Below are positions 32,501 to 56,421 of a DNA stretch of 64,000 nt, in pieces (positions within the stretch are counted from its first letter, which is position 1; every line of letters begins with the position of its first letter). Origin of the DNA: Cenococcum geophilum 1.58. Lineage: Eukaryota; Ascomycota; Dothideomycetes; Gloniales; Gloniaceae. The stretch lies in assembly GCA_001692895.1 (NCBI GenBank), contig KV748229.1:185359-249358 (forward strand). Reading direction: 5' to 3'. The translations under genes were made by a program, and so were the position numbers. The notes beneath the pieces are model-generated. The model ran no database searches and was not told the DNA's origin. It saw only the letters and a program-made list of their open reading frames with translations.

Positions 32501-34589
32501 AAAGGTATATAAATAACGTTCTTTTTAATTACCTTAACAAATTCTATACAGTATACCTAGACGACATTCTTATATACTTAGACAACGAACTTAAGTATTA
32601 AGTTTATATTAAGAAGGTCCTAGAGAGACTACAGAACGCAGGCTTATAAGTTAATATTAAGAAATACGAGTTTAGGGTAAAACGTATAAAATACCTTAGG
32701 TTTATTATAACTACGGAAGGAATTAAGGTTAACCCTAAGAAGGTAGAGGCAATCCGTAACTAAAAGCCCCCTTACACAATAAAAGGAATCTAGTCCTTCC
32801 TTAGCTTCTGCAACTTCTACCGCTAGTTTATCTATAACTACAAAATTACGGTAAAACCTCTCGTATAACTAACTAGGAAGGACACACCTTTTGTTTTTAA
32901 TAATAGCTATATAAAAGCCTTTAAAGAGATAAAGGATCTGCTTATCTCTTCCTTAATTCTTTATTACTATAACCTAGACCTTAAATTAATGTTAGAAACA
33001 GACGCCTCTAATAGGGTCGTAGTGGGAATCCTATTATAGTTATATCTAGACGGCGAATAATACCCTATAGCTTTTTTCTTAAAGATAATAGACCTAGCTA
33101 AGTATAACTATAAAGTACACGATAAAGAAATACTAGCTATTATTTAATTACTCTCCTAATAGCGCGCAGATCTTAAAGGTATAAATTTCTAGATTAAGAT
33201 ATATATAGATTATAAAGCCCTAGAGTACTTTATAACTATAAAGCAGCTTACTAAATAATAGGCCTAGTAGGCCAAAATACTCTCCTAATTCTTCTTTACG
33301 ATTATATATCGTTCTAGTAAGTAAAACTCTAAGGCTAATACCCTAACCTAAAGAGAATAAGATATAGGACCCTAGAATAAGCTAAAGACCTAATATTAGA
33401 CGCGCGCCCTCCTCTATCTAGAATAGCTTGACCCACGGATCCTTAAGGAGCTAGACTCCTAGTAAAATAAGCTAGTACTAATAAAGGAGTCCTTAGATAA
33501 GCTAATAAGGCTAATTAACCACCTCCTAACTATAAACCGCATAGCTAATACCCTAAGGGCCCTCCGCGAATAAGCCGTAAAAAAAGACCCCAATTTTAAG
33601 ATAGAGGAAGAATTGCTCCTATACTAGGAGCGGCTTATAGTCTCTAATATTAATAATCTATAAACTAAACTAATCCGTAAAGCTTATTACTAAGTCTCTA
33701 CAGCATACCCTAGCAAGAACAAGACCCGTAAAATTATTAACTACCGCTACTACTAGCTAAGAATAGTTGCGGATATTAATCAATATATACGGAACTGCGA
33801 AGACTGCTAGAGAGCTATAATCCTACGGGATAAGACCCTAGAACTACTTAAGCCACTCCTAATACTAGAGCGCCCTTAGCAGTATATCTCTATAGACTTT
33901 TATAAACTACCTAAGGACCGTAATAGATATAATATAGTTAGAGTTATAATTAACTACTTTAGTAAACGCCCGTTCTTAATTCCATATTATAAAAATATTA
34001 ATACTAAAAAGGCAGCCTAGCTATATATCTATTACGTCTACTAAATCTATAGACTACTAGATACTATTATATCTAATTATAGGCTATAGTTTATATTAGC
34101 CTTCTGGAATAAGTTTACCTAGATCCTAGGCATTAAGCTAAAGCTTTCTACAGCTTATTACCCCTAGATAGACAGTTAGACAGAGATTATAAATTAGTAC
34201 CTAGACTAGAGGCTTAGGCCCTTTATTAACTATTTCTAGGACAACTAGTTTAAACTACTACCCTTAATAGACTATACGCAAGCAACCTTACCCCATAACT
34301 TTATAGGGTTTGCCCCAATTTAGCTAAAAATGGGATATTTACCCCGCATAAGCTTTAACTAAAAAAGGCTAGAAGAACCCTAGACTATATAAGAGAAGCT
34401 ATTCTATGCTAAGGCCCAATAGTACGCCAAATAATTAAAGGAGGCCTAGACGGTAGCCTATAAGAACCTAAAAAAAGCTTAGAGGTTAATAGAACAGTAG
34501 GCGAACAAACACCGTTAAGAGCCCAATTTTACCCCTACATCGGGAAAATATTCGCAGGATGAGATTTAAGTAGACTTTATTTAGCGCGT

Positions 34590-34870
34590 TTCGCGTAATT
34601 AACATGTAATTGACCAACTTAATATATAACTTAACTAACTTGACACGCAATTAACTAACTTAATATACAACTTAACCAACTTAATACGTAATTAACTAAC
34701 TTAATATTTAACTTAACCAACTTAACACGTAATTAACTAACTTAATATTTAACTTAACTAACTTAATACGCAATTAACTAACTTAACATTTAACTTAACT
34801 AACTTAATACGCAATTGACCAACTTAATATTTAACTTAACTAACTTAATACGTAATTAACCAACTTAATA
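34590..34870. repeat. Subterminal tandem repeat, ~41-bp unit
   Basis: About seven copies alternating ACGCAATTAACTAACTTAAT with ATTTAACTTAACTAACTTAA. The variants ACGCAATTGACCAACTT look like the unmutated state of ACGTAATTAACTAACTT, consistent with C/G to T/A decay. Confidence 0.85.
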
Positions 34871-35044
34871 TATTTAAAAGTTAAATAACACGCAGTTAAT
34901 CTACTTAACAACTTTAAAAGCTAACTGTACATTCCTTAATATGTAATTAAGGTAATATAATATATTATTTTAAAGTTGTATGCCAATTGCGTAAATAAAT
35001 TTTTACTATTTTCTTAGCCTATAGTATGCTAGCTTATAATATAT

Positions 35045-35215
35045 ATTATATATAATCTTATATAATCTTATACAATCTTATACAATCTTATATAATCTTA
35101 TACAATCTTATACAATCTTATATAATCTTATACAATCTTATACAATCTTATATAATCTTATATAATCTTATATAATCTTATATAATCTTATATAGTCCTA
35201 TATAGTCTTATATAG
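35045..35215. repeat. 10-bp tandem repeat (TATAATCTTA / TACAATCTTA)
   Basis: About seventeen head-to-tail copies, the two variants differing by one transition. Non-coding. Confidence 0.88.
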
Positions 35216-36149
35216 GTTTATTATTATATTATATATTATAGGTTTTATACTAGCTTAGCTACTTTTACTATTTATCCTAGCTTTTATATAATAACGTAAT
35301 ATAAGTTCCTTTTTTAAAAAAGTTATCTAAGTATAGAGTATTATATTAGTCCTAATTAATATAATTATTAATATAGTATAAATCTAGATAAGAAGTAGCG
35401 GCTAGAATAATATACGCGCTTTATAGAATAGATGGTATTAAATAAAAGCGACTACCTCTAAGTACTTGCCTAGTATTTACGCTCGGGCGCGGCCACCTTT
35501 TTACCTTAACTATGCCGTATATTAGATGCGGCAGTCTATAATTTAATGGCTAAAGCAGCTCTACTATAGCTCTAGTATACTATATATATATACCGTACTT
35601 ATCTAACCTTTTAATATCTAGAATAGTAGTAATTAGCTAAAGCTAGCCTATAAGTCTTCTACTTAACGGCGTACAGCCCTTTCTAATACGGTCGCCGTTA
35701 TCTATATACTCCTAAATCTATACATAATTACGCCTCTACTAGTTAGAATATTGCCAATTTGGTATACAACGTACTACCTCACTAATTTAGCCCTTAAGGT
35801 CGGTTATATTTTTTCCGTCTCGTTTCTAATAGCGAATAAATAGATATATTTTAATAAGCAGGCGTTTAACCTATAAGGGGTCCTTCTCTTTCTAGTCTAT
35901 ATTAGAGTTCTAGGTATATTTACCTTATAGTTTTCGCCTATACTCTTAAACAAATACTATAATGCCGTTTAAAAACCCTGGGATTTTATAGCAGTTTGCT
36001 ATATAAAATATATAAAGCCACGTCTTTAACCTAAGACGCCTTTAGATAAGATCTGTTGCCCTATCTATATCTTTTAAAGGCTACCGAAGCTTTATAACTA
36101 CCAAATGCTATATTAGTTAAGTAGCCTACACCTTTAAACGCTAGGAAGA

Positions 36150-36830
36150 CTGTGGTATAGAATTACTATTTATAAAAGCTATTTCATCTTCTATTACTAG
36201 TACTGCTACCTATCTTAAATTATAAGAGCAGATTTAAGATAGCAAATCCCGTTTATTTATTAAGTTATAAAACGCCTTAACAATATAACGGTGTCTAGCT
36301 TCGCTATTTGCGCCAGTATAGTACCTATCTACACATCTATACAGGCGGATATTTCCCTTAAAATGTATAAGGGCATGGAATTTTAGTATATTAAAATGGC
36401 CTATATTAGAATCCTTTGCCTTTAGACGGAAACTTTAAAATACGCCTTTAAGCATATTAATTTAATATAGGGCGTGGTGCATATATCGTAGTATCTCCTT
36501 GTTATAGGTGTAATACTAAGCTATAATAATAAAGTTATATACGGCTCTTATAAAATGCATAGCATATAGTTCCCTAAACAACAGCAATAAGGCTAGCACA
36601 GCGACAAGTTAACAAACTATAGCTTTTTATTCATCACCTGTCCATTAAGTAACTTTACTAAATAATAGGTTATTAAACTATTTTAGCCCTATAAAAGCCA
36701 GGACTTATCTAAAACGCTAATTAAGCTAAGCCTCTATAGATATATTTATTATAGTTATCTTCGTCCCTCTTCTCTTTCTTTTTAGCTAGATAACATCGCC
36801 TACTAGTTTCCGTACCCATTTAATAAGTTA
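36150..36830 (-). pseudogene. Plavaka-type transposase, C-terminal part (relic)
   Basis: On the minus strand from about 36462 to 36232, one frame reads HFNILKFHALIHFKGNIRLY, then CVDRYYTGANSEARHRYIVK, AFYNLINKRD and, after a stop at the LS codon, ICSYNLR. This is the distal signature of fungal Plavaka transposases (F-P-K-xHALxHY...IRLYG..DGY.TE..E..H...VK..Y..TNKRD). Upstream, in fragments at about 36830-36470, come NGQVMNK and an alternation of hydrophobic blocks with DICTTPYIKLI, matching the region before it. Multiple TGG/CAG-to-stop type changes are present. Preceding sequence up to about 40 kb is too decayed to define the N-terminus. Confidence 0.6.
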
Positions 36831-38569
36831 TATAACAATACCCTTTAGAAGCTAATATAGAATATCTACTATTATACCCTTATAGATATTAAATAGGCAA
36901 TAGTACTATACAAAATATTCTACCGGGTATACCCAGTTGTTTAAGGATAGAAGAATGTTCTTTAGTTTCTAACGTTTAATCTACCTTCTTGTCTCCTTAT
37001 AGGTGCGTAGCGGGTATTATTTCTTGGTTAAGTTCTTACGCTTTAAAGGGGGGGCCTAGCATATAGTGCAGTGCTATCGGCTTTTAATACCTATAAGCAG
37101 CACTTATTCTTTATAGTCTGCCATTATTCCATATATAATTAGATAATATTATTACACAAAATTATCCGTATATTAAAGGTCTATGCCGCTTTCTACAAGA
37201 TGCTTAATTACTATTATATTTTAGTTAATAGAATATAGCGTTAAAATACTAAAGCAGGACTTACATTTAAGTATAGTTCTTATCGCCTTATAATATACTT
37301 TACTTTTTATATCGTTATCTTTTTCTTTAATAACTGGTATAAAGCCAATAAGAATATTTATAGGGAATATCTATCGGCGCCAAACTTGTTGGTTAAGATT
37401 ACCGATAGTAAAATATACCGGCTAGGCCGATTTATCGCTATAGTGTATTATTAGCTAGGTCTTATTAACTACTATAAGTATAGGAACTACTATAGCACCG
37501 CTAGGAAGCTTGCCTTGTGTCTCCTACTACTAATTACCGCTATATAGCTTATTATAGACTTAGTGGTTTTCGGCATTATAAAGTCTCTTTAGTGCATATA
37601 CTAGTGCATCTTTAAAGGGTTAATAGCCAATTAGAAAGGTAATTATATTTATAATATCCTAGTAAAGAATATAGTATTCCCTCTACTTAGAGCCTTTAAT
37701 ATTTAATTCCACCTTACACTCTAATTAGAGCTATTATTTGTCTTATATACTAAATAAAATAGCGGTAATTAGTTCTTCCTATTAATTTACAGATTAGAAG
37801 CTAAGTAGGCTATAAAGTGGGCTAAGGCGGGTGTCTTTAAGTAATATGTTAACGTCTCCCTTTATATAGTAAATGCGGTACAGCCATATTAAAAAGGCGT
37901 AATTAAACTCTAAATAAAAAGGATTATATAGTATACTTTAGCTATTATCGTGTTATAATATAGTAATATCTAAAATTGTCTAGCTAACTTACTATATATT
38001 ATTATCGGTCTCGCATAAAATTAGTTTACCCACCTTTATATTCTTAGTTGCTTTAAATATCTCTACTCTAAGTAATAATAATAATAATATAACGCTTTTT
38101 TAATATAGTATACCGTACAGAGGCACTAGATAGGCATTCTGCTTATATTCTACCACTACTAAAGCGTACTTATTAGTATCCGTGTCTATACCGTCTAGTT
38201 ATAATCGCGCGTTATCTAACTAGTAAGAGTAGTAGAATTAATCGCGAATTATAAGCAGTTGGGCCGTAATAAATATATAAGTGTTATATCTCTCTTCGCG
38301 TGCTTTTTTATAGACGTGTTAGTGGCTAGGTAGCCGCCTTTTATAGCACTATAGGTATTAGTAAAGGCTACCGTAACTCTTAAGGGTAAAAAAACACCAT
38401 AGATAGCTCCGCTGCATTATCGCTAATTATATATTAAACAATATAGTATTATTTCTAGGCGTAAAGAGTGCGTGTTATAGTACTAACTGTTAATTGCCGG
38501 TATTTAATCTATATAGGTGGCTTAGCTTTATAACTGCTAAGAGTATACCTTTTATTTTCTCGCTAAAAC

Positions 38570-38955
38570 TAGTTACGCTAAAGCATAAGTATAACTAGCC
38601 TAATACTGAGTTTAAGGACTTAAAAGAGTCTAAGGTAGCTAAAATGGACGCTAAAGCGTAAGTATAACTAGCTTAATACTAAGTTTAAGGACTTAAAAGA
38701 GTCTAAGGTAGCTAAACTAGATGCTAAAGTATAAGTATAACCAGCTTAACACCAAGTTTAAGGACTTAAAAGAGTCTAAGGTAGCTAGAATAGACGCTAA
38801 AGCGCAAGTATAACCAGCTTAATACCAAGTTTAAGGACTTAAAAGAGTCTAAGGCAGCTAAACTATACGCTAAAGCGTAAGTATAACTAGCTTAACACTA
38901 AGCTTAACACCGAGTTTAAGGACTTAAAGAGTCTAAAGTAGTAAAACTGGACACT
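38570..38955. repeat. Tandem repeat, ~73-bp unit, about five copies
   Basis: Copies of GCTAAAGCGTAAGTATAACT followed by AGCTTAATACTAAGTTTAAG and GACTTAAAAGAGTCTAAGG. GACTTAAAAGAGTC is itself an inverted repeat, so each unit carries a small hairpin. Confidence 0.88.
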
Positions 38956-40234
38956 GTAAACTAAAGACTTAATAGTACCTAAAAAACCTTTATCCGTCTA
39001 AATAACAATATATAGTATTCTTAGGCAATGGCTACAGGACTATAGTAATAGCGAAGATATTATTTACCACTAATGTTACAGAGCCCGATAATATTAGCTA
39101 TCTAGATCTACGAATTCTATTATTTCTATATAAGCCGTAGCAAGAAAAAAAGAAAAGATTAAGGGTAGTGCTAGTTAAGTTAAGATAACTAAATAAGTTA
39201 GTACTTGGAACTATAATATCCAATCTTAGGTATATAGAGTTCTAACTAATATCTAACTTAAGCTGCCGTCTAGAAGTCTTATATTCGTTATTAGGGTAAC
39301 GCTAGAGGGCTAGGCTAGATAATAGGTATTAGCAATAATATAGATAATTTAAAGCCCGTGAAGTAACTAAATAGAAAGCCCGTGTCTTGTAGGCTAACTA
39401 CTTATCTTTAACGGCTTTTAAAAGTTTATTTCTAGAATTCCTTTTAATATCTCCGGTTTCCTATTAAATAGATATATTAGCACAAGCCTATATACTACTA
39501 GGGTGCGGAAAGCTAAAATATAGTTAGAGCTCTTTAAATAATTTACCAGAAAAGAACAGGTTATTTAGGTTAGCCTATAGATTGGCCAGCTTAACCTTAA
39601 CATCCTACCCTAGCTCGCGAAAATTAGGGCCATCTCTACCCGGTATACCACCGTCGATCTACGTATTAGTATCTCCCTTATTTACAGCGGCTAAAGAGGC
39701 TTTAGGTATCTGGTCTCTAAAAGGCATTATAATACGGCTTTTAAGAGAGCCTGCTCCGCGCTAGGGCACCAGACGCTATATTATAGGTAGAGCTTATAGT
39801 AGTTATATAAGGCGGAATACATTTCTAAGCAGTATACGTTTAAAGAAATTAAGGCTAAGGCAAGCTTAATATAGCTATATTTTTAAAGACAAAGAGGCTA
39901 TAGTGTCGGTTTAGGCAGCTATAGAAGTTTAAAAGATTAAGCGAACAATAGCAGGAAATAGAAGAAAAAGGCGCGTAAATAAGAGTACGGTGTTATAGGG
40001 CTAGAGTGACAATAGCTATGTTATAGATGGCTTAATATGCAATTCGGACTACGGGACCTATATATAAATAAGTCTAGCGAATATCTTTAATATAAAGCGT
40101 AGTAGCTATAAGTAGGATTTAGGATACTAGTTTTAGGTTACCTGTGCAGTAGATATAACAGTTTATCCAAAAAAAAGTTGCTTTATTAGTAATATAGCTT
40201 AAAAATGGGTTATACTTTAGGTAAAAGGGTATTC

Positions 40235-40565
40235 TAAAGCCTTATCTTGCGCTTATGGGATAAAATACTATATTATATTTTACTTTGTTTCGTATAATCT
40301 TAGACTTTTTATAATATCTTAGATTATCCCACTACCTCTCTCTATTATGCACTTTACCTTATCTTGTACTTATGGGATAAAATACCATATTATATTTCAC
40401 TTTTTTTTATATAATCTTAGACCTTTTATAATGTCTTAGATTATCCCCCCACCTCTCTCTACTATGCATTTTACCTTATCTTACACTTGTGGAATAAAAT
40501 ACCATATTATATTTTACTTTTTTGTATAATCTTAGACATTTTTAATGTCTTAGATTGTCCTAAAC
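40235..40565. repeat. Tandem repeat, ~115-125-bp unit, three copies
   Basis: Three copies of CTTATCTTGYACTTATGGGA, then ATAAAATACCATATTATATT and ATAATCTTAGACYTTTTATA, ending CACCTCTCTCTACTATGCAT. Non-coding and moderately diverged. Confidence 0.85.
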
Positions 40566-41229
40566 TTGTTCCTTAACCTCTCTAAAGCTACTTTACTAAC
40601 TAGTTATAATACGAAGAATAGAATTATTAGCTCTCTTATTATTATATATCTAGTCTAGTTGCTTAAGTATACCTATTAGGGTATCTATTATCCTATCTAT
40701 AACTCTTTAGCTTCCTATATAATACATATAACAACTAACGTTTTAAGGCTTTTACTGCGGATTATACTTGTTTTTATATGCCTTGCTATTTATATCTTAT
40801 AATTTTATTCACTTAGTCAGCAGCGTAAATCTTATATCTCGTCTTACCACACACCTTTCGTTCCGTTTCTTACTCTAAGTCTTATATTTTATTCTACTGC
40901 CTATATTAAAGCTTATATCTTATCCTACTTCTTATATTAAGACTCGCATTCTGTTTTATTTCTTATATTGCTCTTATATCACTCTTATTAGAATCCGCTA
41001 TTATCTTAAGTTAACACTATTAGCACACCTTCTTATTATAACTATTAGGATTATCTTGTTAGATTATTGCTAATTATCTAATATATTATCCGCTCCACTA
41101 TCTTTATAAGTTACTCTATACTATTCTATATAAAACTTTCACCCGCTTATAAATATATAGGGTCCTTAACTATAATAGCGGCGCTATACCCAGACTCTAG
41201 TTAGTACTTAACTACTATAACTAATAAGA

Positions 41230-42060
41230 ACTTATTATAAATAAGTGGTCCAAAGCTATAGTAAGGACTTGCGATCAACGAAAAAACATATAAAGAAATC
41301 CTTTAATACTATACTAGCGAAATTAACGAAGCGTCTAGCGGTAGGTTGCTAGCGTCTAGGCCCGTATAAAATGGAGTTAAGCACACAGTCTTTAACCTTC
41401 TTGATACTAAGTATAGGCACGTGTTTAAGAGATCCGATCTACCATTAGAGTTTAAAGCTTTTACTATCGCCGCCAAAAAATCTATATGGCGATACGTAAC
41501 GACCAACAGACGTAGAGGCGTAGAGGTTATAATGGCTGATATTATTCTAAAGTATGGCGGCTTATCTTCTAGAGAGCAGTCTATTAACTTATTTAGATTA
41601 AGGGCAGCCTCCAAGGCTACCTAAGTACTTAGTAGTCTGTCCATTAAAGTCCTATAATAGCTAAATACTATACCTACACTATTCTATAAAATGAGCTTTA
41701 CTGTATACAGTTATCTAGACAAAACGCCATTAAATAGGGCCCCCATTCCATACGGATTTGTATTAAAAACTAAGCATAAGCATCTGTTATCCAATTCTTT
41801 AGAGAAAGTTAATGCATATCACTATGGATATAATAAGCTACAGGCCGTAATAAGTATAAACTTCTCGGCGGATAAATATAGGGATAGCTAGGCCATAGTA
41901 GATCTAACCACCGGTATACTAATTCTTAACTATATAAACCTAGTATTTATAGTACTTTCTGTAAAGAAGGCTAGACTTAATATAATTATAATTAGAGTTA
42001 AAAATCCTAATCGGATTATAAAGCGTAAGAGACTTTACAACTTATATAAGATTATATAAT
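41230..42060 (+). pseudogene. Unidentified coding relic upstream of the SNF2-like region
   Basis: Two less decayed frames stand out: about 41350-41624 (EFKAFTIAAKKSIWRYVTTN, RRGVEVIMADIILKYGGLSS) and 41691-41891 (SFTVYSYLDKTPLNRAPIPY, YHYGYNKLQAVISINFSADK). The second continues after a stop to about 42055 (AIVDLTTGILILNYINLVFI). Composition and length look like protein coding, but I do not recognise the family. They lie on the same strand as and directly upstream of the helicase relic and may belong to it or to an independent cargo gene. Confidence 0.35.
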
Positions 42061-42779
42061 ATTATATAGAGTTATCTAACGTACGTTTATAGGTATAAGA
42101 TTTAATAAGAGTACTTCTAAGTCTAACTCTAACCCTAATATTACACAACCAGTGCTAACTAAGAGAAGAATAGGTATACCTGCCCTAAGTCAAAGTAGTT
42201 ATAAGCAGTCAATTTTAGAGTCCACGCTACCTATATCTAAGCAGTTAAATCTAAAGCCCACGTTAACCCTAAAGTCCACGCTACCTATACCTGCTAGTGC
42301 ATTATTAGCCGTATAGCCGGCTATAATTAAAACTGCTTATAGCTAGACCCGTAGTAGTAAAGACTAGCCCCTACTAGATAAATTAGAGCTCTTAAAAGGC
42401 TTGGATCTAGACAAAGTATAAACATTTAAGATAATGCCATAGGATAAGATGAAAGGATAGTATAATAAATAGCTAAAGTCTAATCGCGAAATGTTTATTA
42501 ATATATTATTTAAGGATATAAATAATAACCCTAACCTAATTTGTATTAGGGAAATTAATCTTAACCATATATAGGAGCGCCGCCACTTTAACGCCTTAAT
42601 TAACCCTATTTTAACTAATAAGGAACTAGAAGATAAGTATAAGGATAGAATTAAGGAGGTTAATTAGGAAGTTAATTACCTAAAGGACGTGCGAGAAGTA
42701 TACATTAACCCAATATTATAGGTAAAGGCGCTGCGGTTCCTCTCATTTCTATTAACTATTTATAACACTCTTTAAGACG

Positions 42780-44960
42780 TAACCTTTTACTTATACGGCA
42801 TAAAAAAGGGTAAAGCTATATAGACATATTAGCTGCTTAGTATTACCTATACTCTTCGCAATTATATAGCCCTAGATAGAACTTTTCTTGCGGATATAAT
42901 GGGTTTAGGTAAGACACTTTAAATGCTTTTAATCTAGTATACCAGCGTGTTAATAACCAAGATTAACCTCAACTAGCTTAATTGGAAAAATTAAGAAGGT
43001 AGAGATAAAAGTCTCTACCTTACTCCTAGTATAAATGAACACCCGTAGCTACCTAACGCCTAATACCTAAGTTAAATAGATGGTATGCCATAGTGCTATT
43101 ATATTAAAAGAAGTATCACCAGAAATTTTCTTTACCGGCTAGTAGGACCAACTATATACATTACTAGACAGAATCTACTGCCCTAAGCGGTTAAAAACAT
43201 TAAATTATGGTTTGAAACCTTAGAACTAAATAATTATATTCCTAGAGGCAAACTACAAGTTTATATACGCTATTCGGCTTTTATTAGGTCCAGTATAAAG
43301 AAGTATAATTTTATAGATAAAGATAAAGACATTCTTAAACCTATGAAATATAAAAGAGAAGGTAAGAAGGTCTGGTGGATAATAGACCTAAGATTGGCTT
43401 TATATCTTATAATTACGACATTATAAACTTAGGCAACAACCTGGACCGCTTAGGAATAGTATAAGACTATTTTTAATCTCTATAGAGACGGTGGTCCTTA
43501 TTATATTATTAGTGGGATTTTTACTAATAAGTTCTATATAGATAGGTTAGAGATAGGTTATCTAATAAAAATAGCCAAACAAGTATATAATGATCAAGCA
43601 GTATTTCCTTACTTTTAACGCCCGGGCCTATCTTATAAGGATGGTAATAGTAAAATAGCCTACTACACCTTTTAACCTTTAGTAGTATTTACTTCTAGTA
43701 CGCCAACCAGCGAAGGTTTTACAAGTTTAATTCCCGCCTTAGAAATTTTTAGGGCCCCTAATTGGGCGGATTCCACAAATACAAAATTAATTAATAATTA
43801 TAATATTAAAGCATTAATTAAATATAAAAAGCTAGGAGCAGCTAATTACTCTTCTCTTCTAAATAAGGTTATTACGGGCTTTAAAGAATACTCCTCTTTA
43901 ATTATAAAGATCTTGATTATACGCAGGATAGGGGAAGACCGATGGTTTAATAGGAGGGTGATTAATAAGCTACTACTAGTCGTTTACTAAGACTGCTATA
44001 TAACGAACGATTTAATATTTAAACCGTATATTAATAAGCTCTGGCGTAGAGCATCTCTAGATGCTTTTAAATAGCTAAATAAAGCTTTTAAACACTAGAA
44101 AGCTAAAGAAAAAAAAGGAGAAGAACCTGTTTTTAATATGGATTAATTTCTAGAGGGAGCCGGTCGCTTATTAAAAATTTTTACTATCTTTCTAGGCCTA
44201 GCTAAGGTAGGAGATAAGTGGCAGGATATATAGTAGAAGGATAAGGCAAAAGTTAGAATAAAGCTGAGGTAGACAGTTAATAAGTTTTATAGCGAAAAAT
44301 GGGATAAACCTTTGGACGAGAATCCGCTTTAGAGGAATTAAAGCATAATTACTAACTCTGGGAAACTAAAGCTAATTATAAAATACGTTGATAAAGTACT
44401 TAAAAGGAATCCTAATAAGAGACTACTGTTTAGTAGTTACGAACTAGCAGCATATACACTATTACGCCTTATAAGTTAGCTATTAAACTAGTAGTAAACT
44501 GTTACTAATAATATAATATAGTATTTTTATAAAAGGCTTAGCTAGTCTAAATATTCAGCTGTTTACTAAATAGAGTTTAGGATATCCCTAAAAGACCAAA
44601 AGGACATTTATAAAGCGTTTTGTATTCCAATAGGCGGTCCTTACTAAAATAACGTAGTTTAGTTTCTTATTATCAACCAAAGGGTTAGAGGAGAGGGTCT
44701 GAATTTAGTCTCTATATATAGAGTCCATCTACTTAAACCGGCGACAACAGTAGATATAAAGGTGCAAGTGTTTAGCCAGGCTGCTAGATCTAGACAGTTA
44801 GCGCCGGTAGTTACTATATTAACAACGTATAGTATAGATAGGTGGAACCCGATTAATATAGTTATATTAGTAAGGCGTACGATAACTAAAAGGATAATAA
44901 TTAATAAGTTCCACGAGGTGTTTAAAACCCAACCTACTTAATAGGCTGATGATGATGTAA
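42780..44960 (+). pseudogene. SNF2-family helicase-like relic
   Basis: The Walker A region DIMGLGKTL is readable at 42891-42920 (DEMGLGKT in intact SNF2 proteins). It follows a RNYIALDRTFLA block. About 240 codons later the ALYLIITTL region continues the first RecA lobe. The second lobe shows SSYELAAYTLLRLIS (about 44430), NQRVRGEGLNLVSIYRVHLL (about 44680) and FSQAARSRQLAPV (about 44775-44813). The last three correspond to the G-LNL, HLLxP and QAxGRxxRxGQ motifs of the SNF2 C-lobe. Many RIP-type stops are present. In intact mobile elements such ATPases are seen as passenger genes; here it is dead. Confidence 0.6.
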
Positions 44961-45132
44961 TAGAAATAGCGTAGCTGGTACAGTTAGAGCAGCGATCCCC
45001 TACAATAAGAGTGTGTCTTAGCATAATATATATATATATAGACAATATATAACTGTTTAATATTTTATAATATATTATCTTAGTATTAACCACCGTATAG
45101 AAGTATAGGCCACCTCGTGTATAGTACCAATA

Positions 45133-45892
45133 TTACCCCACCAAAATACTTATAACTTAAGAACTACTATAATTATTTATATAAAATTTTAAATATGGCT
45201 TATTAAATAGTAATTTAAGCTTTTTATAAAATAAAAATTTAAAAATTTAAAGCTATTTTATATATAGTTTTAAAATACTTATAGCTTAATAACTATAATA
45301 GCTATTTATATAAAAATTTAAATATAGCTTACTAATTAATATATTAAACTTTTAATATAATTAAAATAAAATACTATAAAATATTTTATAAAGAGTTTAA
45401 CTTATTAATTAGTAAGCTATATTGGTTTTTATATAAATAGCTATTATAATTATTAAGCTATATATTAGCGACTTAGTCAATTAAGGCATAAGCACGGAAA
45501 GAGGGACACGTAAGCCTATATAATTAGTAGTCTATAAACGAGGATCTAAAGCTAAAGAAAGGAAAGGAGAGGGCGGTGCTACTTAACGTTATATACAATC
45601 CTCTGGTCACGTGACGGCAAATATCTAAAACTATCTAAAACTATATAAAACTGTCTGCGATTATCCGCTATAATCTACTAATATCTACTAGTTTCCACCA
45701 GCGCCGTAACACTATAAGTATTTTAAAACTATATTTTAATATAAAATATAAAATAAAACTATATATAAAATAACTTTAAAATAAAGAATTTTTATTTTAT
45801 AAAAAGCCTAAATTACTATTTAATAAGCTATATTAAATTTTTTATATAAATAACTATAGTAGTTCTTAAGTATAAGTAATTTGGTGGGGTAA
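45133..45892. mobile_element. Long-TIR MITE (TA-flanked), split by a solo LTR
   Basis: The left arm TTACCCCACCAAAATACTTA onward is mirrored at the right end (TAAGTATAAGTAATTTGGTG, then GGGTAA). Inverse similarity extends over more than 100 bases per side, with further nested inverse pairs inward. TA stands on both borders (45131-45132, 45893-45894). Without the LTR and its duplicated 5-mer the element is about 506 bp. Non-coding and AT-rich. Confidence 0.75.
45463..45711 (-). mobile_element. Solo LTR (249 bp), second copy of the 2588-2812 family
   Basis: Aligns along its length with the LTR at 2588-2812 (GTAGTCTATAAACGAGGATC, GGTCACGTGAC, GCCGTAACA shared) but shows many transitions and small length differences. 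The flanks are the identical 5-mers CTATA at 45458-45462 and 45712-45716. Its terminal TG is now TA, consistent with RIP. It sits almost at the centre of the MITE. Confidence 0.85.
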
Positions 45893-45999
45893 TATAAGGT
45901 AGGACCGTGCACAAGGTAGCCTATTCTAGAAAGTTTAAATTTAATCTAGATTAATATTACTCCAGCTACTAACTACTTCGACACCTATTAAGTAATCCA

Positions 46000-46780
46000 G
46001 CCCACCAACTCTCGTTTCTATATATATAAACAGTTTCTATTAAGGTATATCCTCTCTACTAATAGATTATATATATTTGCTATCTTTATTATTCTAAAAG
46101 CCTAATTAATATGTAAGAGGATCCTCCCGTTAGTGGTGGTTTTTAAGATCTCACTATCCCGTATAAAAACTTTTCACTACTAATAACCACTAGCTCCCAC
46201 CCGCATGCTATACAATGTCTATACGAAATCCCTAACGGCGAAGAAAAGCGTACCCTAATTATTCTATTTAATCTACCTCCTGTCTTTTTCCATAGGTGTA
46301 AGATATTAAATTAACCCATAACACAATACTAACTGGAATAATTGGCAAACCTAGCTTCGTTAGATAAATATGCTTAATAATAAGAACCAAAACCCCATTA
46401 CTACTAAGCCTATTATGCTGTAAAACAAAAGGGCTATTATTAATATTAGTACGTTTTAAACGCACTTTATTAGCCGGCACTAATAAATATAGGTTAATAG
46501 GCTACCTACTACTTTATATTTAACGGTTCTAAGAATAATAGGGTAAAACATACTATTATTCGTCGTGCTTTTACCAACTACAATAATCAATTTATTATAG
46601 GCTAGAAACTTGGCCTTAGATAAGCAAAAGGCAGACTTTTAGGATATATTAGACATATTACGGACAAAACCTTTATATAGCCTACCCGTATTAGAACACC
46701 TTAATAGCAGTACTATACCGTTAGATTTTGCTATTAGGCATTAGAGTAACTAAGCAATCTTAAGTCTTCCTCTCGTTACT
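46000..46780. other. AT-rich, no gene recognised
   Basis: A 70-codon minus-strand frame at 46268-46480 has no recognisable features. Otherwise degraded sequence inside the 21-kb element. Confidence 0.4.
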
Positions 46781-46789
46781 TAACCCTAA

Positions 46790-47145
46790 GCCTTATTATA
46801 TTACTAAGACTCTTACATTATTAAGTTTCATTATATTACTAAGTATTATTACATTACCGCTAAGCCTCATCACGTCGCCGAGCCTTATTGTATTATTAAG
46901 TCTCATCACATTACTAAGTCTTATTGCATCGCCGTTAAGCCTTATTATTTTGCCGAGCCTTATTGTATTATTAAGTCTTATTACGCTACTAAGTCTCATT
47001 ATATCGCCGTCGAGCCTTATTATATTACTAAGCCTCATTGCATTATTAAGTCTTATTATATTACTAAGTCTTATTGCATTGCTATTAAGCCTTATTACGT
47101 CATTAAGCCCTATTACATTGCCGCCGAGCCTCCTAGCCAGATTGG
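46790..47145. repeat. Minisatellite, ~15-18-bp unit (ATTAAGTCTCATTACATT type)
   Basis: About twenty copies with the words TTATTGCATT, ATTAAGTCT and CCGTCGAGCC. The repetitive frames on both strands (Ile-Leu-Ser and Asn-Ile-Arg-Leu) are artefacts. Confidence 0.85.
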
Positions 47146-47351
47146 GCAATTAGACGTTGCGAATTCAACTCCTAGGCGTGGCGGGTGCGATTCCCACTTA
47201 TCGCGCATTAAAAATATTAAAAAAGAAGGTCATTTCCTATTAAATTAGGCGTTAGTAAGGCTCTAAATTAAGCTTATATTTTCGTACGTATCCTATAACG
47301 CCTAAAGTCATATATTTAACGAAATCTTAGCACTATATACTAAGCATATTG

Positions 47352-47505
47352 GCTCTTCCACGCCGATTTTTAATTACGTTAGGCTAGCTCTAAATTAAAG
47401 CAAGAGGTAAAACGTACTATACCACTACACCATAAGGACTTTGGAATGTAATCTTATGAATTTAACTAAATTATAACCCCTTCCTAAACCTTACGATCAA
47501 ACCAG
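47352..47505 (-). repeat. SINE-like repeat copy 1 with tRNA A-box-like head
   Basis: On the minus strand it includes TATGGTGTAGTGGTATAGTA (about 47414-47434), which resembles the D-arm/A-box start of a tRNA (Glu/Gly type). It aligns over about 150 bases with a second copy at 47880-48036. No convincing B box or clover-leaf follows, so it is not a tRNA gene. Confidence 0.35.
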
Positions 47506-47879
47506 ATCTTTAGGGAGAGATCCCTGCATCGAATCTTAGGGAACGTTTAGTGGCGACTTTAGATTAAATCTAAAGGCCTTAGAATATATCCAATCTAAAG
47601 CTTAAATCTAATTCTAATGTAATCGTTCAGTTAATCTAGCGACTTTCTAATCTAAAAGCTCCTCTAGATTAGTAAGCTATACCGTATATAGAATCTAAAC
47701 TGAGGTCTTAGCGTCAGTTTAAATTAGGAGCTTAAAGCTCATCTAGAGCCTTATAGAAGGATTAACTTAATTTCAGATTTCATATTTTAGTAAGTAGTTA
47801 ATCTGCTGTAGTCCAAAATCTTAGTCATTAGAAATTTGGGGTGTCTCTGCCACCGTAGTGGTAGAGGCACCTTAAGTTT

Positions 47880-48036
47880 AACACCACGCCAAGTATTACG
47901 ACTTTCCTACAGTAACCAAGCAATCCCAAATTAAAGCAATTATAGAACTTACCATACCACTGCCCGCAAAGGCCCTTAGTTATAGTCTTATAAATTTAAT
48001 TAAAATATAAACACCTTCCTAAATCTTACGATTAAA
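47880..48036 (-). repeat. SINE-like repeat copy 2
   Basis: Same order of blocks as the copy at 47352-47505: CCTTCCTAAAtCTTACGATtAAA tail, CAGTGGTATGGTA head and CTTTAATTTGGGATTGC. Direct orientation relative to copy 1. Nearby, GGTGTCTCTGCCACCG and TAGTGGTAGAGGCACC (47840-47872) form a hairpin. Confidence 0.35.
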
Positions 48037-48309
48037 TATTTCTATGTATAGCACTATGCCAAGGATCACAATACAGATTGCTTAGATATAGCTTTACTAT
48101 AATGCAACGGCTCTACGCTAATTAATTAATCTACGGCTCTAAAATCTAGATCTATAACACTAAAAACAAGCTCTAAGCTACTAATTTTATATTGGCAGAA
48201 CGAAACTTAGCAAGAGATTTGGGCAGTAAAATTACTACTAAAAGTTACTGCCCGGATCCTGGCCGATAAATACCTATAACTATAATCTTAGTAAATGGTA
48301 AAAGTATAT

Positions 48310-48600
48310 AGCAGTACTGAGACAATAGTAGGATAATATGAGACAATAATAGGACAATATAATATAATAGTAGGACAATAATAGGATAATATGGCACAAT
48401 GGCAGGATAATAGCAAGACAATATAATATAATAGTAGGACAATAACAGGATAATATAACACAATAGCAGGACAATGACAGGATAATATAATATAATGGTA
48501 GGATAATGACAAAATAATATAATACAATGGCGGGATAATAGTAGGACAATATAGGACAATATAATACAATGGCAGGATAATAGCAGGATAATATAAGATA
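48310..48600. repeat. Minisatellite, ~15-17-bp unit (GGATAATATAATACAATGGCA type)
   Basis: About eighteen imperfect copies of GACAATA(G/A)CAGGATAAT-type words. The hydrophobic Ile/Leu/Tyr minus-strand frames here are artefacts of the repeat. It lies where the minus-strand SF1 helicase relic would be expected to continue. Confidence 0.85.
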
Positions 48601-48689
48601 ATATAAAAATATAAAATATGAGATATAAAAAGAGGGAGCCCTAATACTTCCTTTTCTTTTTACCCCTACGGCCATAGCGCCTAATGCAG

Positions 48690-49800
48690 TGTAATATTAT
48701 CTATCCGTATAAGCGATAGTATTAAGACGGTTACTTTAAGCAATATGCCTAGATAACTAGTTTAGCGTATGGTTTATATAACATATAACAATAATAGGGG
48801 GATCTCCTATTGTTATATTGCTAAGTAACGCCTTTAAAGCTACGTTTTTCTAGTGCTTAGAGGTCCTTGGATTATTACAAGACGCTTTATAAGAACTTGT
48901 TTTAGCGCAGTGGCTTTAAGCCCTATAGTAGTCATATCTGGCTAGTCTTTAAGAATATGAATATTCTTAAATAAGGAAGCATCCTTAATAGCTATAATTG
49001 AGCTAAGATCCGTATAAGGCTTATTTATAACGTATTATAGTACTTTAATATTCTATTAAACTTAAACAAGGTGTTCTAATAACGGGAATCTATTAATGGT
49101 TAGATATCTTCTTATTTAGAAAATATCGCACACTTACGGCTCTCTTATTAGCTTTTATAATGCTAATATAGTATAGTAATTAACTTCGTAAAATCTAGTT
49201 TGTTCCTTAACTATTGTCTATAATATAGATAAGTTAATCTTAATCTCTTTAGGTCTTAAAGAATAAGTTAACCTCTAGAGGATTCTGTTCTAATACGGCT
49301 AATAGTCTCGCCGCCGCTATTGCGAGTATACATTTTATTTAAAAAATATTAGTCTTAGGAGTTAAAGCAACTAAAGACCCGGCGACTAGTCTTTTTAACT
49401 AATCCTAACGGATTATCTTCCCTACTCTCTTAAGTAAGAACGCCACGCGGATTACTAGCCCTTAAGGTAAAAATATTACTAAGCTAATATAGGCCTTATA
49501 GATATTAGGGGATAACTGCTTTAGAATTATAGCATGCTTACCTATTTATATATACCGATTCCATTACTATATCCAGATTCCGGCAAACTAAAAGGGTCTA
49601 CTCTAATTTAACCTACTGCCTCTCTTAATGGTTTAATCGTGTCTTCTCTTAAAAGATTATACTAAAAGCTTAGATACTCCTCTGTTAAGCCAGATGGACC
49701 TAAGATCTTATTAACTTATAGTAGAATATCTTCGTTTTTGCTAATAATATTCTAGCCCTTATTAGGGATATTAAGTATTTCGGCGGAGGTCGGGATCTCC
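48690..49800 (-). pseudogene. NFX1/ZNFX1-like superfamily 1 helicase, N-terminal half with P-loop (relic)
   Basis: Read on the minus strand from about 49.8 kb: ILGPSGLTEEYLSF, then LLREDTIKPLREAVG, SLPESGYSNGIGIY, KDASLFKNIHILKD and PDMTTIGLKATALKQVLIKR. Then come LVIIQGPLSTRKT (48840-48885) and IPLLLLYI. The last two correspond to IQGPPGTGKT and the following strand of SF1 helicases. The preceding DxSQxxAL block is typical of the NFX1-type zinc-finger helicases (ZNFX1/Hrr1 group). Many transitions to stop are present. The C-terminal half is missing or erased beyond the minisatellite at 48.3-48.6 kb. Host capture or an element's own gene are both possible. Confidence 0.5.
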
Positions 49801-52800
49801 AATTATACTAACTAGGCTCCACTAGTTAAGGGCTAACTAGGCGTCTTAAAGTATTAATAAATATAGTTACTAGTACATGTTAAGCTGCTTAGAAGGGATT
49901 TATATATATAGAACTATAGCGCTATAGCCTAGAGGCTGTATATACAGTATTATATATAGTATAATATAATAGAGATAAAAAAAAATTTATATATATATAT
50001 ATAAAAAGTATTAACGAATCTAGGTGCTAAATTAAGCTTATTAAGATAGAGGAGACGTAAAATAGATAGGAGAAGGCTTATAAGTCTAGGTGGTGTAGTA
50101 GGTAGAGAAGCGTTCGCTAATACGCTTATTCATTTCTTATAAGACATTTAACCGATTGTTTTATATATAACTAAACAATATAGTTACCTATCTACACAAT
50201 CCTGTATATCGGTCTTAGCGCGTAATTAAGACGTCTTTCCTACCGTACCTCCCCTAATGCTTCTGGAATTATGGCACTAATAATAGACCTAAGCTATAAC
50301 ACCAAAGACACTCTTAAGCGAGATCTTAGGGTTATAAATAAACAATATAATACGATCTACTATAATATTAAAATTAAAATGTTAACGCGCGGGCTCCTTA
50401 GATAGCCACTACGCTCCCTTATAAGTAAGGTATAAATACGGCAAATATTAAATGAAATCTCTAACGAATTCCCATCTGTGTTTCTAGGTTTACCTAAGAA
50501 TTTACGTACTAAATATATTAAATAACTTGCCTAGCGCTATAGCTATAATGCGACGCGTTAAATAAACAAAACGGCTCCTATTAGGCAAATTATAATAGGC
50601 AACTTAGTACTCCTATACTCCGCCATCGCATATTATCCACCGGCTGGTATACTAAAGATAATAAGGTAGGAGGGAATACTAAGGTTATATAGGATAATAA
50701 CAATACTAATCTGGTGGGCAGCTGACGAAGAGCTAATAATTATTCTAACCCGAAAGCTAGCGACTGGTAAGAATAACGCCCTAGATATATACGTTAATAA
50801 TCTAAGCTTTAATATATTTGTAGATATACTAGGCTAGGATATTAACTTTAACCCTAAGAGCGAAACGCTTTACTACTATATTGGCGATAAGATAGTTAGA
50901 AAACAAATTTAGCTTATAAACAAAGAGAAATGACGTAGTGCGGTTAAGGATATATTTCTATAAGAAATAGATAAGTTTTTATTTATAATAGAATAAAGAA
51001 GAACAAGTAGGTTACTGCTTAAAGTTAATTTAGCGTTACTAACTTATATTTATAGTCTGCGCTACTAGCTAAGAATAATATAATTACTTACCCTCTATTT
51101 CCGCACCCTTGCCTTTACTAGATAACTCGTACTCTATATATATAAGAATAGGTAGAATAGGTAAACGGGTTAATACTAAGGCGATACTCGACCTACAGCT
51201 ATCCTAAAAAACCTCTCCTAGTTAAAAAAGAGCCCTTACTCTACGCCTTAACCCGTAATAGAAAAGGCGAAGGCAACTATAACCGCAGCATGGATTATGC
51301 GCCTTAAAGCTACTACTTTATTTAGAATACTTGCTGGTTTAATAGATCACCATATATAAAGGTAGACGGCTTAATATTAGAGCCCTTCGGCGTGCTATTA
51401 GGCAAGGAAGTCTTAGAACAATATGTCCTGGGATATTCTTATAACTTATCCGGCATTCTTAAAACGCCTAAGGGGATTAGATAACAAAGCCTAAGGTTTA
51501 TACCTATTCTTTTTAGTAAACTTATTAGGGTAATATATATTAACACCGTCCCTAGCTTACTCTTAGTATCCGATACCTAATCCTTATATCTATGCTTACG
51601 CTTTCCTTACCATTTTACTAAATTTAATTACTATTGCGATATATATGTAGGGGATAGGTTAGGCTTACTATAGGCTAGTAGGGTTAACAACACGGAAGAA
51701 TAACGTTAGATATTTATGGTAAAAATACTAGGTGTTGTATAAGGGTGTAGAATATGGCGATATAACTATATAAAAGTGTTATTGCTGTCCTATATACCGC
51801 CTATGCTTACCCTAGCATTATCTATACTAGCGAGCTGTATAGATAAGGTAGATAAGCTTTATTTTAAGCGCGAGACGGGTATTAAACCTAGTATAGGTAG
51901 ACTAGAATAAGGTATAGGATCTAAAAGCCGGCGCCCTAGATAGGTAAAGTGGTTTAATAAGGTACCTCCCTGTTAAATTTAGATATAAGCCTTACTAGCC
52001 TACTGCTTTTGTTGCCGGGATTAACGTTTAACCTTTTATATACCTATACTATATCTACTAAGGGATATACTAATAAAATAAAATAGTTTCGCGTATAATA
52101 GCAAATAGTATTAGACAATCTTTAACTATATAATAATGTTTTCTTAACTACTAACTTAACGCGAGTTAATAGGTCGCGATTGTGGCTTAACTATAACCGG
52201 TTAGAACTAGCAGCTAATTATAATAAATGCACCCCTATTTAAGTCATTTGCAAGCACTATAGTAATAATACTCCTACTAATACTACTATTAGTCTAATAT
52301 ATACTATACCAGTATATATTCTTTTAAGTTATTAATCTATATACGCCCTAGACATTATAGAAACAGCTATAAGGTAACCTATTTTAGCTATAAGCTATAC
52401 CTTCTACTAACTAGGTAAATATAGGAGTATTACTATAGCAGGTAAACGTAAAAACGCGTTATTAAACACTTAAACTAGTAGCAAGAACCCTACTTTAAGT
52501 TAACGTATAATAAGGAAATAAGGATAACTAGTATAATTAACCTTACGTCTCTACCTAGCCTACTACTAGGAGTTACCCACGTCCTAGCTAATAGAAGGAA
52601 GAACGCGCTAATAGAGAATAAGTATATAGAGCCTAGCTAGAACAAGCACATGGAACCCAGCTAGAACGAGTAATATTATAACTCTAGTTTAGTTATATTT
52701 AGGCGTAAAGAGGAGCAGGCATATAATAGACCCCGTTAACGTTATATATAATATATTAAGCTGGCTAATAATATATAAAATATACATAGCCGCCTCTGGC

Positions 52801-53109
52801 CAAAAAGGGTAATCTCTAATAATGAGGATAGTAACTATAAGTCTACACCTACTTCTTCTACAAAACGATAGCAACTAAATATTAATAAATCTACTAAATC
52901 TGTTAATAATCTAGTAGTAAAACTAGCTTAGTTAAAGACGCAAAGTCCCAATCTTTTGGTTAAGGTAGGTTACACCTTTATATATAACCAAAGTCTAACT
53001 ATAATACTTAATAGTCTCCTCTACTATTTAGCACTTAACGGGCCCTAGTAAATAGAACACTTTCTTTACTATCTAACCGCTAACTACTATAAAAAGCAGC
53101 ATCTTTGTA

Positions 53110-53255
53110 ATATACCTCCGGCTCTTAACGATTGCGTATTAGTTTAAAATACTCTCCTACGCGTCTAATCCGTACCTTACCGCGTAAACAATTGCGTGCT
53201 AGTTTAAAATACTCTCCTACGCGCCTAATCCGTACCTTATTACATAAACAACCAA
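53110..53255. repeat. Two direct copies of a ~58-bp unit
   Basis: AGTTTAAAATACTCTCCTAC followed by GCGYCTAATCCGTACCTTA occurs twice in tandem. The short open frame across it is repeat-driven. Confidence 0.8.
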
Positions 53256-54559
53256 TATTTAGCTTTATATTTTCCCTAGTAAGCCGTGTCCGCCTAAACC
53301 CTAATATAGCTTCATCTATAAGATAAGTGACCTCCCTCTAATATAGAGTACACTAACCTAGTATTTAATCTAAAGGGGACCTAAATAGCGCCAGGGAAAG
53401 TAAGGACAAGTTAGACTATAAAGACGATTTTAACCTAACTACCGCGCTACGGGTAAGAGAAGAGTACCTCTAGATATTATAACGGCGACATATAAAAGAA
53501 AACCCACCTAAGAGATATAAGCCTATATTTACGCTTTATAGGTCTATTTTACTAGTAAGGCTAGTAACTAACTTTAGGACTTATAATGGGTATTTTATTA
53601 ACCCATAGTTCGACCGCTTTTTAGGCCTTATTAAGAATATAATAAAAAAGGCATAGTTAGAAGCTATTTTAAAGCAGCTAAAAGCAGTACAAAAAAAAGC
53701 TAATTATATTCCTAACCCGGTGTCCACTTATAAGGTATCTATATACTAGAAATATTATATTAAATTATCTATTAATAATCTTAATATTATATATAGCTAT
53801 TTAATGTAATAGGGAACTTTAGGAACTATATGATTATAAAGGCTTATACGATTATAAGGGAGGTGTATAGGCTAGGGTTTAACAATATACCCGAACTTAT
53901 TGTGGAACTACTAACTAATTATAATTTTATTACGCTGGATTATATAAAGGTATTTTACCTATACTATTTAGTAAAATACTAATAAGAGTTAATAGCTAAG
54001 TAATAACCGCTTCCGTTCTAACGCGATAGTTGCTAGTATAGCTAGTATATTTTACGGTAGAGGAAAGAACGGCCTTACCTAATTACCCTACTTTTATAAT
54101 ATATTTAAAAAGCTTACCAATAATACTATTGCTTTTGTTTTAATAGCAATATATTATATAATTAGGGAGTATAGAACTAGGTCTAAGGGAATAAACAACT
54201 TTTATAGCACTGTTATTAGTAGTTAGTATATATCTAGTGTTTTACTACCTATTATTATTCTCTAACCCGTTATAGAAGCCTACGCTAACCTCTTAGGCGG
54301 CTAGAACTAAATATCTAAAAAACGGCAATCTAGAATCTGGCTGCGGCTTTAGCCCGTAGTTATTAAATATACTATAGGCCTAATGCTAGATTAATTAACT
54401 ATAGAAATTATTAAGGACCCGTATAAAGATAACCTTAATAACCTTATAGCGGATCTAAGTAATAACGTAAGAGAGAGGTTCCTTATAAGCCTTAGCGATA
54501 ATAAAACTAACGCGATTATTAACTTAGGCTATTTATTAGTAAGCCGGGCTATACCATTT

Positions 54560-54705
54560 AATTCACTAAGCCTGTCTTAAAGGGAGAGCTCTAAAGTAGG
54601 CTAGATTAGTTTACCAAGTCTGTCCTAAATAGAGAGCTCTAGAGTAGGCTAGACTAGTTCGCTAAGTCCGTCTTAAAGGGAGAGCTCTAGAGTAAGCTAG
54701 AAAAT
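54560..54705. repeat. Three tandem copies of a ~56-bp unit
   Basis: AAGTCTGTCCTAAAKRGAGA and GCTCTAGAGTAGGCTAGACT recur three times in head-to-tail order. Confidence 0.82.
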
Positions 54706-55424
54706 CTAGGGCCCTACTACTACTATAATATTTACTAATTTAACTTTTAGAACTAGCTAAGTTCGTTAGATTTAGCAGAATATATATCCTCTGCCCTAGT
54801 ATATCACTTTATCCTAAATATAGGAACTAGCGAGCCTAGGCCAGAAAGGTTTAAATCTAATAAGTTATTTGTATAATTTAAGCAGTACTATAGCCTTATA
54901 AAGGACAGCTATAGCTAGTATAATAATAGGAAAGTAATATTAAATTTAATTAAGAATAAGGAGTAGTATATAAAGTTTGTAATATATACTCTAGACTCTA
55001 GTATAGAGGAGCTAGTAGAGTTTTTAGTAGGAGATTAGGTATAGGACTTTCCATATTCTCCTATAGGATAACTGCGGCTTCTTTATTATATATACTAGCT
55101 CTTAATCTACCTTTCTTTTAGCCTATATCTGCTACTCTTAGTAGCTACTTTTTAGCTATATATATATGCTATACTAGTAAAGCTAAATACTTATATTATA
55201 TTATTGTTGTAGGGAGAGCAGGAAAGATCTTATAATTTTAGAATATATTATAAAACAGTTAGAATATTATATTATATTGTCTAAAATAATATATTGGATT
55301 ATATAAGGAAGTGTATACAATTTGCCTTGCTAGCCTTATAAATAGCTTTAAAGTAGCCTTTTTTTATTATCTAAAATATACTGTTGGTATAAAAGAGGTA
55401 GATGGCTCCAAATATAATTGTGGT

Positions 55425-55490
55425 TGTAGGTTGCGTGTAGGTTACGTGCAGGTTGCGCGTAGGCTGCGCGCAGGCTGCGTGTTAAAAAAA
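55425..55490. repeat. 11-bp tandem repeat near the right end of the 21-kb element
   Basis: About five copies of AGGTTGCGCGT/AGGCTGCGCGC. It is unusually GC-rich for this region and sits about 110 bases from the right terminus. Confidence 0.8.
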
Positions 55491-56421
55491 CACGACATAG
55501 GCTAGTCGGTCGGGTTGCCAAATGCCCTCAACTGCGCGCCAATTGCGTCAACCACCAACCATTGAGGCCATTGGAAGGGTACCATATTTTGCCGATATAG
55601 CGATATAGTCTAGGTTATAATAAGAAATTAAAAAACCAAATAACCTAGCTATAAGCTAGACTACTAGATAGCAGGACTATATAAGGTTCTTAAGAAGATA
55701 GGCAACTTATATAAGATAAAGCTCCTAGATTTAATTAGGGTTTACCCTATTTTCTCGCCGAATAAGTTACGGAAAGCTATAAATAACCTATTACCTAGAC
55801 AAAAGAATAAGCCTCCCCTACCAGTTTAAGTAAACGGTAATAGCGAATAGGAGGTTAACAAAATACTAGCCTATAAGATAGTACGGGGAACGCTAAAATA
55901 CTATATCTAATAGAAGGGCTATAATTTTAACCCAACCTAATACCCTATATAGAACTTTATAGGCTACCCCCAGAAGCTTAAAGAATTCTATAACCAATAC
56001 CCTAATATACCTAGACCCCTAAAGTACCTAGACGAATAAATAGAATACTAGTATAATAAAGATAATAAGTTACTAGAAGAATATAGGGACAAAAACGCCC
56101 TAAAGCCCTAATACAGCTATCTGCCAAATTCTGCTATATTCTGCCGTTTTCTGCCAGTACTATAAAATATTAGATATCCAAGAACTTTAACCGCCAGTTA
56201 AAGTTGTCTAATTAGTTAGATCTATGCCAAGACTTTTAGCGGCTACTCTTTTTAGCCTAGTGCTTCCACTTAGCCTATAATCGCCCTTTATACTTAGTCT
56301 AGACGTACTTATATCCCCTTTATTTCCTTATCTTATATTTTATAATCCCACGTTTATAAGCCTAGTATTACCCTATTTCTAACTAAGCCTAAGGGCAGGC
56401 TTTCTTTAAAGAGGGGGGTGA

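Follow-up and report, generated by a model that had tools for sequence, protein, structure and literature searches.

Structure, ends and copies of the element

Within a 64,000-nucleotide stretch of Cenococcum geophilum 1.58 (contig KV748229.1, positions 185,359 to 249,358; G000:C54:185359-249358 in our notation), hereafter called the window, lies a single DNA transposon of 21,060 bp, which occupies window positions 34538-55597 and is bounded by imperfect inverted ends of 14 bp. From left to right, it contains the relic of a Plavaka-type transposase gene, a long frame probably encoding an SNF2-like ATPase, a fragment of a host helicase gene and the relic of a DUF6532 gene. The left end begins at 34538 with CATCGGGAAAATAT (34538-34551, plus strand), common to the copies examined; the right end (55584-55597, minus strand) finishes at 55597 with ATATTTTGCCGATA, whose reverse complement is TATCGGCAAAATAT (CATCGGCAAAATAT in many copies). 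Directly outside each terminus stands a TA (34536-34537 and 55598-55599), identified as the target duplication by flank reads and empty sites. Three subterminal tandem arrays lie inside the ends, two on the left (41-bp unit repeated 6.4 times, 34608-34871; 10-bp unit repeated 16.6 times, 35049-35214) and one on the right (11-bp unit repeated 5.3 times, 55425-55482). The boundaries, inverted ends and TA borders given in a first reading of the window (the original prediction) are thus correct to the base, and the subterminal repeats that it described at both ends are present.

We used the two ends as queries against the genome (177.2 Mb, 162 contigs). The genome searches scored only the best candidates, so that all copy counts given here are lower bounds. 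The left-end query returned at least 41 matches (best 40 of 579 candidates scored). Of these, 31 start at base 1-6; in 4 of the 10 others (L004, L005, L007, and L008) the true end lies further out in the locus. With the right-end query at least 40 matches were found (best 40 of 619 candidates), and all 40 stop at base 499-505, the element itself ending at base 500. By hand count, 17 of the 41 left ends have a right-end partner no more than 53 kb away, on the same contig and the same strand. The 2-bp flanks could be read in 13 of these 17 pairs and are identical in every one of them (10 TA, 2 TT, and 1 TC).

Empty sites complete this picture. When the window flanks are joined through a single TA, they align uninterrupted and without any length change at 40/40 scored sites (best of 1,490 candidates), as expected if the original prediction, which had proposed a search for empty sites with one TA, was right. 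The flanks of the copy on contig C37, joined through a single TC, likewise align at 40/40 scored sites (best of 123 candidates), 39 of them without length change. By eye, the frame across the joined window flanks resembles the terminal part of a Ty3/Gypsy pol gene. A short derivative was also found on C74 (L062, C74:301800-304300, positions 78-2461): it measures 2,384 bp, has both ends of the element and an AA target duplication, and matches the left end over about 430 bp, a stretch that takes in most of the 41-bp array, and the right end over 280-320 bp. No Pfam family matched its interior, which is filled with minisatellite repeats; in translation this interior resembles, by eye, an array at 57.4-57.8 kb of the window.

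Six more copies (on C7, C10, C36, C37, C33, and C4) measure 19.8-20.0 kb and are mutually collinear, and the window copy is collinear with them save for some length differences. Other copies are longer, with 21-53 kb between paired ends. Alignment of the seven copies gives 19,231 gap-free columns, of which 14,842 are invariant, 2,131 are C/T and 2,070 are A/G. Other variation is confined to 147 of 19,190 plain-base columns, and because the window copy is the sole deviant in 113 of these 147, it belongs to a slightly different subfamily. The copies therefore differ almost only by transitions of the type produced by repeat-induced point mutation (RIP). Indeed, the RIP indices are strong in 7/7 copies (TpA/ApT 1.53-1.60; second index 0.46-0.60), and an A follows the C in 37% of the variable C columns compared with 2% of the invariant ones.

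Transposase, accessory genes and gene order

The transposase gene relic extends over 35283-38072 on the minus strand, as judged by homology with a second Plavaka family described below (family B, as opposed to family A, the giant element). Its Plavaka domain (PF18759, 36813-37697) scores 122 bits against a cut-off of 26.3, and the same domain reaches E 5.7e-40 in the copy on C33, the one copy used for six-frame Pfam scans. The Plavaka-type transposase of the original prediction is therefore confirmed; its grouping of Plavaka with KDZ is out of date, as Kojima (2025, PMC12730594) places Plavaka in the CMCT (CMC-type) group. The target duplication fits PlavakaB and not KDZ: PlavakaB elements are described with duplications of 2-3 bp, and the giant element has 2 bp in 13/13 readable pairs, in the C74 derivative and at the empty sites, whereas the 8 bp given for Zisupton would be expected of a KDZ element. 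By their sequence the termini, CATCGG...CCGATG, are closest to those of PlavakaB (5'-CATCA...TGATG-3'), with which they agree in the first four bases and disagree in the fifth. In the better preserved transposase relic of family B we read CIIC followed by HPLRTH, to be compared with the CMCT-clade motifs C(2)C and H(3-4)H; this arrangement was not found in family A, where a scan for C(2)C covered three RIP-mutated copies.

The centre of the element is occupied by a long frame on the plus strand (41130-44921), which is 1,263 codons long in the C33 copy and in the window copy changes frame once, near 42060. Stops common to all seven copies affect 21 codons in this frame; the other plus-strand frames have 82 and 127 such codons. 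A protein search with it returned at least 44 genome rows, 32 of them covering all 1,066 query codons. Two motifs, LADxMGLGKTL-like at 42887 and GEGLNL...VYLL-like at 44690, which we take to be SNF2 motifs I and V, occur with at most two substitutions once each in 7/7 copies, in one frame and exactly 1,803 nt apart. The SNF2-like relic of the original prediction thus stands as regards the long frame and its motifs, and these are the main grounds on which we regard the frame as probably encoding an SNF2-like ATPase. Profile support for that part of the claim was sub-threshold or absent, and this weighs against the assignment: PF00176 (SNF2-rel_dom) has 72 matches in the genome and none in the window element; in searches of individual copies it appears below threshold in 2/7, with a best E of 0.089 (ARS2 in 1/7 at 0.28); Helicase_C appears in 1/8 copies at E 0.14, behind the unrelated DUF5672 (1/8, E 0.08); and comparison of the frame with PDB gave no match up to E 1. 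This lack of any significant profile or PDB match would be explained if the frame encoded some other large protein with motifs that merely look like those of SNF2. We consider this unlikely, given the constant spacing and single occurrence of both motifs in all seven copies and the fact that the SNF2-rel_dom and Helicase_C matches, weak as they are, fall in the expected halves of the frame. Separately, stop-riddled SNF2 matches occur outside the element copies (on C75, C71, C36, C100, C72, and C93) and perhaps belong to another SNF2-bearing repeat family.

On the right, a DUF6532 gene relic (PF20149, profile positions 99-184) is found at 53954-54229 on the plus strand with 33 bits against a cut-off of 24, and the C33 copy contains it as well. 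The relics at 50-55 kb, suspected earlier to be additional cargo, accordingly include a gene which also accompanies another Plavaka family. Among the 76 DUF6532 matches in the genome, 35 lie within 8 kb of a ZNFX1 match and 14 lie 4.4-5.1 kb downstream of a same-strand Plavaka match, the latter representing a further family (e.g., C64:386050-390954 and C13:2385054-2389898); 5 have only a distant Plavaka and 22 are near neither. These positions suggest that DUF6532 is a regular partner of Plavaka. LbR_Ice_bind and MgtE_N matches in the C33 copy fell below their cut-offs and were discarded. A search for TET/JBP cargo (PF12851) gave no match anywhere, controls included, and does not demonstrate its absence.

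The order of these genes is conserved. In the SNF2 count, based on 43 of the 44 SNF2 rows and 68 of the 123 Plavaka rows, an opposite-strand Plavaka lies on the 5' side and an opposite-strand ZNFX1 on the 3' side of 41 of the 43 SNF2 copies, each within 45 kb. Common termini, empty sites and an order held in at least 41 copies bear out the proposal that the window contains one large multigene transposon with terminal inverted repeats. The search for further copies with both termini and the same gene order, by which this proposal was to be checked, was successful; neither parts that never occur together nor ends without a second copy, named beforehand as refuting outcomes, were encountered.

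A captured piece of a host helicase gene

Between the SNF2-like frame and the DUF6532 relic, on the minus strand, lies a fragment of a host ZNFX1-type helicase gene (48736-50137), adjoined by a minisatellite (48318-48646). Its ZNFX1 domain (PF25396, 49240-49491) scores 44 bits against a cut-off of 27. Its source is the one ZNFX1 match that sits in an open gene away from any Plavaka, on contig C16. This host gene has the ZNFX1 domain together with AAA_11 and AAA_12 (one separate piece of it gave no Pfam match), and its best PDB match is NFX1-type zinc finger-containing protein 1 (E 3.2e-72), followed by UPF1 (1e-25). As judged from its domains and best matches it is a helicase of the ZNFX1 type, to which Hrr1 and SAD-3, two helicases of RNA silencing, also belong; in PMC5384783, SAD-3, Hrr1 and RnhA are reported to function in RNA silencing.

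The fragment corresponds to host positions 1596-2864, with identities of 81.5% and 78.2% in two blocks, and its likeness to the host gene ends after motif Ia. Comparison over 1,236 columns gives 817 identical positions, 372 RIP-type differences and 47 others. Deletions of 2 bp and 13 bp, the latter just past the GK of Walker A, are present in 8/8 copies compared, and AAA_12 (PF13087), with 23 matches in the genome, has none in the window element. The sequences thus indicate that the fragment was truncated and frameshifted before these copies multiplied. A complete SF1 (superfamily 1) helicase as cargo is ruled out by the truncation, the shared deletions and the missing AAA_12 match. Hence, of the two helicases that the original prediction had assigned to the element, the NFX1/ZNFX1-like one is reduced to a captured piece of about 1.3 kb: the ZNFX1 domain is indeed there, in an intron-bearing, frameshifted fragment without the AAA_12 half and not in a helicase gene. 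Likewise, of the profile searches proposed at the outset, that for Plavaka found its domain in the element and those for PF00176 and PF13087 did not. RIP damage to the host gene was considered and rejected: the base composition of the captured part equals that of its neighbours, and where the host has T/A against C/G in the copy (30 sites), only 7 are in TpA context.

The counts of ZNFX1 and DUF6532 neighbours rest on 110 Plavaka rows out of 123, the remaining 13 being second-half rows. Of 65 ZNFX1 matches, 50 have a same-strand Plavaka downstream (38 at 8-17 kb, 12 at 17-60 kb) and belong to the giant element, and 9 have Plavaka upstream within 5 kb. The latter nine places constitute family B, a divergent and better preserved Plavaka family which we read in L059 (C30:1710000-1719900), where a transposase relic (CxxC, HxxxxH) is followed by a minisatellite and then by the ZNFX1 piece. 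A scan for family B ends gave only AT-rich chance matches. The family B piece corresponds to positions 1773-2638 of the C16 gene with 92.8% identity, and overlaps that of family A. Two short introns can be read, by eye, in the fragment of both families; because they were kept, the fragment was most likely copied from DNA. Over the larger segments that align, the A and B transposases show 40-52% identity, and the ZNFX1 pieces show 83% at the DNA level; the piece therefore did not descend from a shared ancestor alongside the transposase. The two pieces share 4 non-RIP changes relative to the host and no indels; at 39 positions, some of them at unreliable alignment edges, B departs from a base common to A and the host. 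This comparison speaks against derivation of the A piece from the B piece and fits two captures, though the piece may have been exchanged from another source.

The minisatellite that flanks the piece on one side in each family could also mean that a small mobile unit carrying ZNFX1 inserted into both Plavaka families, rather than being captured by each. Such a unit is quite improbable: 59 of the 65 ZNFX1 matches lie within 60 kb of a Plavaka match, all 59 on the same strand, and the two families have different breakpoints in the host gene. The six matches without Plavaka within 60 kb comprise the host gene itself, three others, and two which belong to the giant element, as indicated by its right end (C21) or by the SNF2-like frame together with DUF6532 (C6).

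A further possibility is that selection kept the piece. Its RNA, in the form of small interfering RNA, antisense or decoy, would lower the host helicase while an element is young and so weaken its silencing, opening a period of spread before RIP, and for this reason two families would have gained overlapping pieces. The host gene is of a type whose fungal members SAD-3 and Hrr1 take part in RNA silencing (PMC5384783), which is in line with this idea, as is the presence of overlapping pieces in families with such divergent transposases. On the other hand, the host gene bears no RIP-type damage, capture of functionless gene fragments is common, and both pieces may go back to one shared source; the frameshift in 8/8 copies has no bearing on a role as RNA. 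On balance we think this very unlikely, slightly more so than a mobile unit.

Origin of the giant element and relation to known systems

Taken together, these data make it highly probable that the element is a Plavaka-lineage cut-and-paste transposon of about 20 kb, recently multiplied and inactivated by RIP, which carries SNF2-like and DUF6532 genes and a hitch-hiking fragment of a host helicase gene. Most likely, it spread recently to dozens of copies in a RIP-capable fungus, and RIP subsequently inactivated it. The transposase, encoded on the minus strand at the left, would act on the CATCGG...CCGATG ends and insert the element at 2-bp targets, mostly TA, with the subterminal arrays as likely binding zones. 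The SNF2-like gene in the centre and the DUF6532 gene at the right, both on the plus strand, would have travelled along and may aid transposition or chromatin access. The ZNFX1 piece would be a DNA-level copy of about 1.3 kb of the host gene, which hitch-hikes without being a working cargo gene.

Some observations do not sit easily with this account. Among the 41 left-end matches, 24 have no partner among the listed right ends (best 40 of 619), and one of these was inspected. Two of the 43 SNF2 copies lack Plavaka within 45 kb, one having ZNFX1 only and one neither. In addition, the fifth terminal base deviates from the published CATCA of PlavakaB. A small Plavaka element hit later by unrelated elements with SNF2-like, ZNFX1 and DUF6532 pieces can be dismissed as extremely improbable in view of the collinearity of six copies of 19.8-20.0 kb and of the gene order, which is the same in 41/43, even though the copies with 21-53 kb between paired ends tell us that nested insertions do happen in this family.

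The giant element has likenesses to several known systems. With PlavakaB (PMC12730594) it shares the PF18759 transposase, a 2-bp target duplication and 5'-CATC...GATG-3' ends, and silencing-linked accessory cargo (TET/JBP) is known in that group; it differs in its CATCGG ends, its size of about 20 kb, its RIP-active ascomycete-like genome, and its SNF2-like and DUF6532 genes and host helicase fragment. In Amoebidium, very large repeats with a Plavaka transposase, up to 50 kb and flanked by Plavaka, have been described (PMC11244446); those are tyrosine-recombinase gene clusters, whereas the giant element has defined ends, a target duplication and another gene set. In Dothideomycetes a histone H3 gene captured by a hAT element was multiplied and mutated by RIP, and the original stayed open (PMC6710886), which resembles our case; however, that transposon is of another class and its H3 copies lack introns, while the fragment described here keeps its introns, derives from an RNA-silencing-type helicase and is carried by two families. 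The Pack-TYPE elements of plants (PMC8903248) also have terminal inverted repeats and host-gene pieces; they are non-autonomous, unlike the transposase-bearing element in which this piece sits. Giant size is thus already known, as are gene capture and RIP, and their combination, as well as the captured gene, was not found in the literature searched. This search, which covered few subscription papers, gave no description of the giant element and no work joining ZNFX1, transposon, capture and fungal, or Plavaka and Dothideomycetes; DUF6532 came up in a single paper.

Elsewhere in the window, arrays of the GCTCTGCGTA type, with units of 12-30 bp, occur at 15719-16060, 19591-20428, and 57458-57847, and an open frame of 859 codons at 21045-23624 (plus strand) is, by eye, alpha-glucosidase-like.

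A very large multigene Plavaka transposon is now described, for which the exact ends, the target duplications and the empty sites are known, and the unknown domain DUF6532 is linked to Plavaka elements in two families. Pieces of one gene for an RNA-silencing-type helicase occur in two divergent Plavaka families, which makes profit for the transposon versus chance capture a testable matter. If RNA from the piece did lower the host helicase, it would parallel, at the RNA level, the TET/JBP cargo with which other Plavaka elements counter silencing.

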